Made by a program: the position numbers and the translations under genes. Source: Bacteroidales bacterium (GTDB lineage Bacteria > Bacteroidota > Bacteroidia > Bacteroidales > Marinilabiliaceae). From it: a DNA stretch of 36,395 nt. Positions 5,567-26,076 of the stretch are shown piece by piece (position 1 is the first letter of the stretch; each line of letters starts with the position of its first letter). The stretch spans positions 1 to 36,395 of the forward strand of contig JAFPZF010000014.1 in NCBI GenBank assembly GCA_017417385.1, written 5' to 3'. A model generated the notes under the pieces. The model saw nothing but the letters and a program-made list of their open reading frames with translations, was not told where the DNA came from and did not search any database.

Positions 5567-5757
5567 GGAAGGTTCTAGAAATTAGATTTTTCAAGGCGCA
5601 CGAGACTTTGAATACCGGAGTTTACTGGAGGAAACCTTTCGATTAAGCGAGTGCAATGGAGCTTGCTCCAATTGCCGAGCGTGAGAAAGGTCAGCGCAGC
5701 TAAATGAGGATTTCAAAGTTGAGTGCAACGCAGAAAAAGCAATTTATAGAAGTTTCC
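5567..5757 (+). repeat. Mosaic interspersed repeat, copy 1 (block order A-B-C)
   Basis: A 191-bp element with imperfect terminal inverted repeats: left end 5567-5592 (contains TTCTAGAAATTAGATTTTTC) and right end 5731-5757 (contains AAAAAGCAATTTATAGAAG). Between them lie block A (5593-5626), block B (5627-5700, containing the inverted repeat GGAGCTTGCTCC at 5658-5669) and block C (5701-5730). Blocks A and C are identical, base for base, to 23504-23537 and 23470-23499 on the opposite strand. In this copy B lies between A and C. No transposase is encoded. It sits between the TonB receptor and the HMA gene. Confidence 0.85.
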
Positions 5758-22105: not shown

Positions 22106-22140
22106 GGGAACTTCTATAAATAGCTTTTCTAGAAGCCCCC
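22106..22140 (+). repeat. Minimal derivative of the mosaic repeat
   Basis: A 35-bp stretch in which the right terminal sequence (GGGAACTTCTATAAAT) is joined almost directly to the left one (TTTTCTAGAAG), with blocks A-C missing. It is flanked by the direct hexamer CATAAG (22101-22106 and 22140-22145), which could be a target duplication or chance. Confidence 0.6.
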
Positions 22141-22161: not shown

Positions 22162-22203
22162 GCGAGGAGTCTCCGTGATGATATCATCGTGGAGGCTCCT
22201 CGC
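22162..22203. terminator. Bidirectional terminator between GH35 and DUF2059 genes
   Basis: GCGAGGAG then CTCC pairs with GGAG then CTCCTCGC, and the loop region holds the palindrome GATGATATCATC, giving a very long stem. The genes on either side converge on it. Confidence 0.8.
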
Positions 22204-22742: not shown

Positions 22743-23417
22743 CTATGCTGCGAGCAGCTCGAACGTCTTGAACCTTTTGTAAGCCTTACGAGTCAGATAT
22801 ATTGCAGATGCAAGGCAAACAATCCAGAAAGCGACGTATATACTCAGCGGTACGTCTATATCCTTGAGTAGTTTTCTTCCCAATGAAACGAGCGGATATG
22901 GAAGATATATACCGAACAATGCTAATCCAAGCGCGTACTTGTTTCTTCCCAATTGCGAGTAGAGGATTACGCTTGCCATTGCGAAGAAGTAAGCGCCAAT
23001 AGACACGAACATCAACATGCCATCGATGTCGTTAGGCTCGTATTTCAGCGACTCACCGCCGAAAGCAGCCCGAACGGCTATCATCAGCATAGCAACAAGA
23101 AAGGCAACAATCGCAGGAGACTGGGCGCCCAGGATGCAGCCGAAGAACTTGTCCGAGGGGCTTGCCGGGAGTTTCAGAATGTCCTCGTCAACTCGAGGTC
23201 CATTCTTGGCGTTTACTCCATATTGGGTCGAGAAGCTGTATAGAGCCATGGCAGCGGAGAACGTTGAAGTAAACACTAACGTAAATACGGCAGTCACAAG
23301 CAGAGGAAGATTGTTGTATAAGCTGGCGGCGATACCGCATAGTGCAAAAAGCACGAAGAACACCGTGAAGATTCTAATCAGTCGCTCATTGAACTTGTAT
23401 TTTATTACCTTCCACAT
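22743..23417 (-). CDS. ABC-2 type membrane protein, paralogue 4
   Basis: A 224-residue protein starting MWKVIKYKFNERL, with six predicted membrane segments (for example IFTVFFVLFALCGIAASLY, LLVTAVFTLVFTSTFSAAMAL, SPAIVAFLVAMLMIAVRAAF, MLMFVSIGAYFFAMASVIL). The cytoplasmic loop DILKLPASPSDKFFGCILGA is shared with the other permeases of the locus (LPAS/LPAK...DKF.G). The C-terminus KAYKRFKTFELLAA parallels the KFKNYEIT ending of paralogue 1. It is probably a permease component served by the ATPase at 26077-26904. A mosaic repeat fills the gap between it and the GntR gene. Confidence 0.78.
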   Translation of the reverse strand: MWKVIKYKFNERLIRIFTVFFVLFALCGIAASLYNNLPLLVTAVFTLVFTSTFSAAMALYSFSTQYGVNAKNGPRVDEDILKLPASPSDKFFGCILGAQSPAIVAFLVAMLMIAVRAAFGGESLKYEPNDIDGMLMFVSIGAYFFAMASVILYSQLGRNKYALGLALFGIYLPYPLVSLGRKLLKDIDVPLSIYVAFWIVCLASAIYLTRKAYKRFKTFELLAA

Positions 23418-23442
23418 ATTACACTCTTGTTGTTTGTTGTAG

Positions 23443-23632
23443 GGGAACTTCTATAAATTGCTTTTTCTTCGTTGCACTCAACTTTGAAATCCTCATTTAC
23501 TCTAGTAAACTCCGGTATTCAAAGTCTCGTGCGCCTTGGCTTCGCCTCATGTGCTTTCGCTCGGAAATTGGAGCAAGCTCCATTTCTCTCGCTTGATCGC
23601 ACAAGTGAAAAATCTAATTTCTAGAACTTCCC
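23443..23632 (-). repeat. Mosaic interspersed repeat, copy 2 (block order B-A-C)
   Basis: A 190-bp element, inverted relative to copy 1. Read on the minus strand: left end 23632-23607, block B (with GGAGCTTGCTCC, minus strand of 23570-23581), block A (23537-23504), AGAG, block C (23499-23470), right end 23469-23443. Here A and C are neighbours and form a hairpin (TTTACT, AG, AGTAAA at the tip; ACTTTGAA and TTCAAAGT at the base), while B lies outside it. It occupies nearly the whole gap between GntR and paralogue 4. Confidence 0.85.
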
Positions 23633-24705: not shown

Positions 24706-25382
24706 GCTGTTATGTCGTAGTTCTTGAACCTAAGGAAGGCAGAGCGCACCAATATCGGCGAGATGACAAGAGTCAGCGCGGCGAAGGTGGCAGCAACGGC
24801 GGGCGACATCGGGAGACCCAGATTGTCGAGGAAGCAGCCGAGAATCAGGAGCAGGCTGAGCAGCACAAGCGGGACACCGAATCTCAACAGAACGTTGGGC
24901 AGGAGAGCGCAGTAGAGAGACGTGCTGCAGCCGATCAGGTAGACGCAGAGCATGCTTACGATCCAGTCAGCGGTTGCGCCAGACCCTATTATTCGTTCGA
25001 CGGCGCCCGTTGTATCCTCGCCTATCGCCTGACCGATGGCAATTCTTGCCGTAATAGTCAGGACACCCACCAACAGAGCGGACAGCGGAATGATAACTGC
25101 AGAGTAAACGATCATTCCAGCGAACTTGTCGATAGGCTTGGCAGGGAGACACAGGAGCCTATCCGACACACGAGGGGCGTTGAGATCCTTCATCCCGTAG
25201 TCGCAGAAGCATTCAAGGGGAGCTAACACGCTGCCACCGACAAGCAGTCCGCCGATGAAGGAGCCGAAAATAGGCTGGCTCAGGTTGATGGAGAGCAGAG
25301 CCGATCCTACGCATACTGATAATACCAAGGTCAACAGTTGACCGCCTCGTTCGCTTAGAGCGTATTTGATTACCTTCCACAT
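24702..25382 (-). CDS. ABC-2 type membrane protein, paralogue 2
   Basis: A 226-residue protein starting MWKVIKYALSERGG, with six predicted helices and the loop RLLCLPAKPIDKFAGMIVYSA. The C-terminus is FKNYDITA, nearly the same as paralogue 1. The 36 bp spanning its ribosome binding region and first codons (25362-25397) match 26016-26051 of paralogue 1 with one difference, which points to tandem duplication. Likely a permease subunit of the transporter. Confidence 0.78.
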   Translation of the reverse strand: MWKVIKYALSERGGQLLTLVLSVCVGSALLSINLSQPIFGSFIGGLLVGGSVLAPLECFCDYGMKDLNAPRVSDRLLCLPAKPIDKFAGMIVYSAVIIPLSALLVGVLTITARIAIGQAIGEDTTGAVERIIGSGATADWIVSMLCVYLIGCSTSLYCALLPNVLLRFGVPLVLLSLLLILGCFLDNLGLPMSPAVAATFAALTLVISPILVRSAFLRFKNYDITA

Positions 25383-26051
25383 AGTTTAGTCCTCCGTAAT
25401 TTCGTAGTTTTTGAATTTATAGTAGGCGTTGGCAAAGAAGTAAATAGTAGCCAAGGCGCAGGCAGAGCAAATAGCAATGGCGGCAGGTTGCGGGAGGTCT
25501 TTCAAGTGCTTGAGTGACAGCATCAGGACGACGCACGCTAAAGGTAAGATGTTTTGCCTAATATGCTTGTTCTTGCAGAACGTGGCGGAGATGACACCTC
25601 CCGTTATAGCCAAGCATAAGAAGCCAAAGCAAAGGAACCCTTGAAGGTCTTGACTTGTCATAGACGTATCATCGGGCACCTCGTTGCCGATAGCAATCTT
25701 TACGACTGTCGTCAGAGCAGCCACAGCCAGGGCGACAATCACTGGCATTTCGCCACCTATTATGCAACCGAGGAACTTGTCTCTCGTGCTTGCGGGCAGC
25801 GAGAGGATGTCGTTGTCAAAGTGCAGATGTCTAACATCGTTCTTGCCGGCGAAGCATCTATACGACTTTAAAGGAGCGCAGACCAGAGCCATTCCAGTCA
25901 TCAGAGCCACCGTCTCGTATAGCGAGACACCACAGAAGACCATCACAAAGCCCACGATAGTCGCGACTAAGGCTAAAGATATCGTAGAAGGCATCAGAGT
26001 GCCCTCTTCGAGTTTGTATTTTATTACCTTCCACATAGTTTAGTCCTCCGT
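25362..26051 (-). repeat. Direct repeat spanning permease start regions
   Basis: Two copies of a 36-bp sequence, 25362-25397 and 26016-26051, differ at one base. Each contains the ribosome binding stretch GGAGGACTAAACT and the codons for MWKVIKY. A shorter match (22 bp, 23397-23418) covers the start of paralogue 4. Confidence 0.85.
25386..26036 (-). CDS. ABC-2 type membrane protein, paralogue 1
   Basis: A 216-residue protein starting MWKVIKYKLEEGTL, with about six helices (LALVATIVGFVMVFCGVSLY, VALMTGMALVCAP, MPVIVALAVAALTTVVKIAIG, FLCFGFLCLAITGGVISATF and others) and the loop DNDILSLPASTRDKFLGCIIGGEM shared with the other paralogues. It ends FKNYEITED; its stop codon lies inside the ribosome binding region of paralogue 2. 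It follows the ATPase by 40 bp and is the first permease of the operon. Confidence 0.78.
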   Translation of the reverse strand: MWKVIKYKLEEGTLMPSTISLALVATIVGFVMVFCGVSLYETVALMTGMALVCAPLKSYRCFAGKNDVRHLHFDNDILSLPASTRDKFLGCIIGGEMPVIVALAVAALTTVVKIAIGNEVPDDTSMTSQDLQGFLCFGFLCLAITGGVISATFCKNKHIRQNILPLACVVLMLSLKHLKDLPQPAAIAICSACALATIYFFANAYYKFKNYEITED

Positions 26052-26076
26052 TTATGCGTATTGTTCTGAGTTGACA

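Follow-up and report, generated by a model that had tools for sequence, protein, structure and literature searches.

How can two repeats that share their ends and are nearly equal in length carry the same internal blocks in a different order? This question is raised by two copies, of 191 and 190 nt, in the window analysed here (the whole 36,395-nt stretch of a Bacteroidales contig), where both were found as the initial annotation had placed them. Their block order, A-B-C in copy 1 and B-A-C in copy 2, was confirmed by the exact runs that they share when read in the same direction: copy 2 lies on the minus strand, opposite to copy 1, and comparison of copy 1 with the reverse complement of copy 2 gave runs of at least 12 nt in the left arm (22 nt), A (35 nt), the palindrome of B (19 nt), C (30 nt) and the right arm (23 nt). 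With the module taken out (70 nt from copy 1 and 69 nt from copy 2), two 121-nt cores are left, identical at 115 of 121 positions. The copies differ in the position of one module, not in the order of ancestral blocks. The annotation had called B similar between the copies; this holds for the middle of the module, where the 19-nt palindrome is identical, and fails for the closing stem and the 3' mini-hairpin, which differ because two site-specific module types are involved.

Both copies belong to a large family of small mobile repeats, in which a folded core, termed K, carries extra hairpin modules, termed B, at varying places. The core comprises a terminal stem P1, formed by the two terminal inverted repeats, then P2, P3 and a hairpin P4, with conserved non-Watson–Crick internal loops between them (Table 1). 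We consider it likely that the window copies are composite non-autonomous transposable elements, built from a K backbone and B inserts, and that the shuffled order reflects one module type at two sites.

Table 1. Parts of the two K elements and a collapsed copy in the window.
Feature	Position	Strand	Remarks
Copy 1: K element with one B module at site a (central hairpin loop)	5567..5757	+	191 nt
Copy 1 left arm, 5' strand of terminal stem P1	5567..5592	+	base-pairs with right arm when folded; 115 genome-wide matches to left-end pattern
Copy 1 5' half of K core (P2, P3, 5' side of P4), holds block A	5593..5631	+	35-nt run from 5592 identical to copy 2
Copy 1 B module, site-a type	5632..5701	+	lower stem ACCTTTC/GAAAGGT, CTTG-loop hairpin, 3' mini-hairpin; borders ± a few nt
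Copy 1 3' half of K core, block C	5702..5731	+	30-nt run from 5701 identical to copy 2
Copy 1 right arm, 3' strand of P1	5732..5757	+	110 genome-wide matches to right-end pattern
Copy 2: K element with one B module at site b (junction beside left arm)	23443..23632	-	190 nt
Copy 2 B module, site-b type	23538..23606	-	lower stem CTTGTGC/GCACATG, CTTG loop, mini-hairpin GGCGAAGCC; borders ± a few nt
Collapsed 35-nt mini-copy, core lost	22106..22140	+	right arm and inverted TAGAAG end

The family is not a product of chance, since copy 1 gave 153 blastn matches in its own genome and the end patterns counted in Table 1 (up to three mismatches) compare with 0 for reversed-pattern controls. Ends in the fetched stretches were paired into 95 elements, with 45 unpaired end matches left aside, and the removal of two overlapping ones gave 93. 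These range from 121 to 675 nt, with lengths clustering at 121, ~191, ~261, ~332, ~399 and ~471 nt, and 92 of them align cleanly to the 121-nt core. Inserts occur mainly at three sites: b beside the left arm, a in the P4 loop and c before the right arm, near which they were frequently split by the aligner. At core positions 24–25 there are 34 inserts (25 of 68–72 nt, seven of 137–139 nt, one of 207 nt and one of 553 nt), and at position 64 there are 25 (19 of 70–73 nt, five of 141–143 nt and one of 210 nt). All eight combinations of sites are present (none, 22; a, 7; b, 6; c, 4; ab, 1; ac, 5; bc, 10; abc, 8) in the 63 of 93 elements with every insert at least 60 nt long and at a, b or c, the other 30 having split or further inserts. 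A pattern classifier, which may confuse the site letters a and d, recognized 160 modules in the 93 elements, again in all eight combinations and with modules nested in modules. The genome-wide check of block order proposed by the annotation revealed no single shared order; the classifier distinguished 34 architecture strings.

This variety bears on the idea, put forward earlier because block order differs between two copies of near-equal length, that B moved from inside the A/C hairpin of one copy to its outside through an unusual rearrangement. Such a move is extremely improbable: module ends are site-specific, the module sits at site a in copy 1 and at site b in copy 2, and other copies have no module, two (a+b, a+c or b+c) or all three, with B at a and b together in locus L013. 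Nor is an unusual recombination mode needed, as insertion of repeat into repeat and recombination between copies suffice; L127 and L121, for example, join the outer half of one module to that of another and lack the intervening core. Of 20 apical hairpin sequences that recur, nine are present at more than one site, a sign of exchange between modules. For the composite elements that we favour, a self-contained hairpin B of ~70 nt would have landed at several K sites and inside other B copies. Composite copies would then have multiplied, and modules would have been lost or swapped, presumably as homologous modules recombined; both hybrid copies and copies with the core deleted are observed. Collapsed copies of ~35 nt, like that in Table 1, form a separate class that is also found elsewhere in the genome.

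The elements transpose, as is evident from the 4-bp duplications that flank them. In this genome, exact 4-bp direct repeats flank 19 of 93 elements compared with 2.6 expected, and 5-bp repeats flank none. For other Bacteroidales the numbers are 32 of 52 against 4.3 expected, with one repeat of 5 bp, after 22 of 74 rows (two duplicates and 20 with arms beyond the model) had been dropped. In two Pseudomonas genomes, 12 of 19 elements with CAGGCCGTTGAAAA-type ends have such repeats against 5.5 expected, mostly CTAG, TTAG or CTAA. The flanks of the two window copies match at three of four bases (ACAA/GCAA and CTAT/CTAC). K has the traits of a miniature inverted-repeat transposable element (MITE): it is short, with inverted terminal repeats, a fixed 4-bp duplication and no transposase of its own, and its interior consists of the core and hairpin modules. 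MITEs of the IS5/IS1182 type make a 4-bp YTAR-type duplication. K resembles them in its (C/T)TA(A/G) or AT-rich duplications, those in Bacteroidales being AT-rich and not strictly YTAR, and in that its ends in Pseudomonas borbori match those of a broken DUF772 element; it differs in that its interior is a conserved fold and its arms vary widely between hosts.

K moves as a DNA transposon that makes 4-bp target duplications, most likely mobilized in trans by a DDE transposase. The latter step is supported by a broken IS1182/IS5-type element of 1,014 bp in P. borbori, which has the same ends as the K-type elements there and holds pieces of a DUF772 transposase; it scores over the cut-off for PF05598 and well below those of the NCBIfam IS1182 and IS5 models. 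The core model has no match in this broken element, and the core is thus more than the ends of that insertion sequence. In the genome of the window, no transposase with K ends was found (PF01609, 0; PF01797, 0; one PF05598 match without the ends). IS1182-type (PF05598) genes were searched in 13 Bacteroidales genomes, with 12 matches in eight of them, and none of ten loci checked had convincing K ends of the type found in its genome. Two further candidates were set aside. On a plasmid of Pseudomonas amygdali, an IS630 gene neighbours a K copy, but its ends differ by eye. In genome G149, contig C30 carries an IS110-family transposase gene and ends at a K-type terminal repeat (L233); the core model has no match there and the proximity was read as coincidental, although this could be an IS110 that targets such repeats. 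G149 also has two loci, L244 and L256, with K-like ends around unrelated interiors (426 and 203 nt) and no core match, a second MITE using such ends.

The 4-bp target duplications speak against another mode of spread, in which REP/BIME-like elements are moved by a Y1 (RAYT) transposase. The elements are indeed palindromic, mosaic and mostly intergenic; nevertheless, this genome contains no Y1_Tnp, and 30 Y1 loci of other genomes gave no B match and four K matches, two of them at one place. Membership of the REP/BIME/REPIN class, which is moved by a Y1 RAYT transposase and lies beside it, is therefore not supported, and we give this origin next to no probability.

What, then, keeps the interior of a transposon in shape? 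RNAalifold predicted 43 pairs on 22 module-free cores, and for 19 of these there are sequences changed on both sides; the covariation score was 0.255 against 0.120 in shuffled alignments (0/500). Among 22 modules chosen for diversity from 107, with a structure specified by hand, 13 of 18 pairs have double changes and the score was 0.502 against 0.170 (0/500), while further pair types (19) were no higher than in the shuffles (19.5). Conservation is only marginally higher in unpaired than in paired core columns (0.80 versus 0.77 and 0.78 versus 0.73). The left-to-right strands of copies 1 and 2 fold far better than shuffles (z of -5.8 and -7.2), and in both the module forms a hairpin at the side; for copy 2, the reverse strand likewise beats its shuffles by a wide margin (z of -5.2), and reverse strands retain a mean of 0.65 of the core pairs. 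The left-to-right strand has the better fold in all 93 elements of this genome, in 33 of 34 Bacteroidales elements taken one per genome, and in 23 of 24 mostly proteobacterial loci, which are 24 of the 38 given to the core model; orientation followed the model matches. At paired sites of this strand, G-U outnumbers A-C by 168 to 77 in all 93 elements, two fixed G-U pairs excluded. The excess is strong in P1 (95:18), where it is dominated by one difference between the arms, and weak in P2 and P3 together (63:52).

From covariation and strand asymmetry, the fold of K is probably kept by selection, and the repeats look like more than a decaying MITE, as the annotation held. The folded form is most likely RNA, transcribed with neighbouring genes, single-stranded DNA being the alternative. 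The element is most likely carried in transcripts and kept folded, with host tolerance or the binding of a factor as its putative role. The insertion sites are a separate matter: modules re-inserted at random kept 0.801 of the core pairs compared with 0.830 at the real sites (15 elements), and 404 of 900 random insertions were at least as good, so that neither a choice of sites for the fold nor the idea of fold-neutral sites finds support here.

The same pairing could be a matter of DNA, if arm-to-arm template-switching repair of imperfect palindromes in replication yields the matched changes with no selection on RNA and the modules spread by the same slippage. Several features fit this: module stems have mostly both-sided changes with few one-sided intermediates, and both the collapsed mini-copies and the core-deleted copies could arise from hairpin-mediated slippage. 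The apical module hairpins (35 trimmed forms, 24 with a CTTG loop) also fold about equally well on both strands, with no clear preference by energy (22 equal, eight left-to-right, five reverse). However, template switching predicts neither the one-strand advantage of whole elements in Bacteroidales genomes and other loci nor the mismatched internal loops GGAG/UGAG and AGGC/AACG, which recur in Bacteroidales and Proteobacteria, and we regard it as unlikely to account for the fold.

K is not confined to this genome. The core model matches 96 of 393 Bacteroidales genomes, in 65 of 206 genera, in a scan with stricter filters and at most nine candidates scored per genome, and the matches from many genera are near 121 nt long. 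Arms vary: GTCTGTCCATAAAGTC-type ends are found in G254, G086 and G283, and other ends in G410, G105 and L180. Across genomes with different arms AGGC, CGGAGTTTACTNNNGTAAATGAG and AACG recur, as does AGGC...CGGAGTTTACT of the 5' K core in other genomes, and the islands AGGC, CGGAGTTTACT, GTAAATGAG and AACG are retained while the letters of P2 and P3 vary. The exact P4 pattern occurs in at least 118 stretches of named genomes, including Pseudomonas, Halomonas, Thalassolituus, Mariprofundales, Thiotrichaceae, Chitinophaga and Chryseobacterium. Of 80 loci listed, 38, mostly Proteobacteria by title, were given to the core model; it matched all 38 at E ≤ 0.1 and 36 at E ≤ 1e-5, one of the latter (L306) away from the place of the pattern. 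The choice by pattern guarantees a conserved P4 in these 38, but not the AGGC/AACG islands or the stems. Among the G410 copies at L182 and L202–L206, the four with complete flanks have a terminator-like hairpin immediately to the left of K, and the two truncated by contig ends retain the last part of this hairpin, so the mobile unit there may be larger.

In P. borbori, one end pattern occurs 51+58 times, compared with 1+0 for the control. Twenty stretches from this and a second Pseudomonas genome comprise 19 short elements and, as the 20th, the broken insertion sequence described above. Five of the elements are plain, with 140 nt between the ends; others have 155–259 nt with hairpin inserts, and two are collapsed (78 and 83 nt). 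The core model reaches seven of the 19, including all five plain ones, and the B model none, so their hairpin inserts are not B. Pseudomonas K copies match plasmids (20 and four records, mainly Pseudomonas), copy 1 has no match in plasmids and phages by distant blastn, and a search of E. coli with a Pseudomonas copy found none. Rfam gave no match at gathering score across the window and none at E ≤ 1 in ten loci of this genome or in 12 Bacteroidales loci; five matches in seven further loci all lie outside K.

A core that recurs while its arms differ between genomes and groups, with constant islands and a length of ~121 nt across many genera, would suit a genuine functional RNA, regulatory or protein-binding, that uses different transposon ends as vehicles and for which mobility is secondary. 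We hold this to be a serious possibility, somewhat short of an even chance. Against it, copy numbers around 100 in some genomes and the many intact 4-bp duplications look parasite-like, and no fixed orientation to genes is seen outside this genome. Here, elements lie antisense to their neighbours in 69 cases against 22 by net flanking strand, with two undecided (93 elements, p = 8e-7), a count resting on a crude codon-bias gene finder, with which many right ends also fall within 30 nt of a stop codon. The loci of other Bacteroidales are balanced, with 19 (-,-) and 19 (+,+), 24 mixed and ten one-sided, so the antisense bias is not general and a strand rule was rejected. Two other features were noted near genes in the window. 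A near-perfect palindrome of 42 nt at 22162–22203 separates two gene ends and precedes a T-rich stretch; it looks like the intrinsic terminator of convergent genes. Similar stretches at 23397–23446, 25362–25411 and 26016–26065 lie at or beside the starts of minus-strand reading frames and are probably paralogous N-termini.

Among known systems, the BOX elements of Streptococcus pneumoniae, organized as boxA-boxB-boxC and described from streptococci only in the cited passages, are similar in architecture (PMC3049150). Both are composite MITE-like repeats with terminal modules that have inverted repeats and target duplications, with a variable number of internal modules, a predicted RNA fold and insertion into other repeats (PMC3049150). 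They differ in that boxB forms a tandem array between A and C, whereas K carries one module type at three separate sites and nested (PMC3049150); K thus shares the inverted repeats and target duplications of BOX and lacks its ends flanking a tandem array. The likeness is one of architecture; the cited passages place BOX in streptococci (PMC3049150), and K is in Bacteroidota and Proteobacteria. K works like a BOX-type composite MITE, but with several separate insertion sites. BrickBuilt/MITEPgRS of Porphyromonas gingivalis are likewise Bacteroidales MITEs with internal repeat units and IS5-type ends, but their tandem units of 23 or 41 nt and GAGACC-type ends differ from the units and ends of K (PMC4596501, as far as the cited parts go). 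ERIC, a 127-bp intergenic element, is similar by description, and the cited passages on ERIC and on Rickettsia palindromic elements make no mention of multi-site nested modules (PMC10969869, PMC3049150).

A search of the open-access PMC literature, with six core, module or end sequences included as text, found no description of K or B. We tentatively propose, at less than even odds, that K may be an undescribed family of structured mobile RNAs in Bacteroidota and Gamma- and Zetaproteobacteria, a conserved core on different transposon ends that grows by taking up self-contained hairpin elements. If so, its growth offers a natural counterpart, present in many copies, to the way in which ribosomal RNA has grown by expansion segments. 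Within one genome there are ~100 alleles of a single folded element, ranging from no hairpin domain to many, in readable combinations, which allows tests of domain gain in structured nucleic acids and of whether folding limits the inserts that a transposon accepts. A folded core in mobile repeats of distant bacteria, lacking an Rfam match, would furthermore be a new target for annotation and could explain unassigned intergenic repeats.

Module B is an independent repeat elsewhere in Bacteroidales. Its model matches 37 of 393 genomes, in 27 of 206 genera, and 30 of the 37 have no core match in the scan described above; around 31 B loci fetched from such genomes, no core match was found nearby, and by eye their surroundings differ between genomes. 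In genome G054, a B-type hairpin (L260:1501-1583) lies inside a 430-codon open frame, immediately ahead of an RHS core domain (TIGR03696; Pfam gave no match). Rickettsia palindromic elements lie within genes, in frame. The placement of B in G054 may be compared with that of this in-frame element (PMC10969869, PMC3049150, as far as the cited passages describe it).
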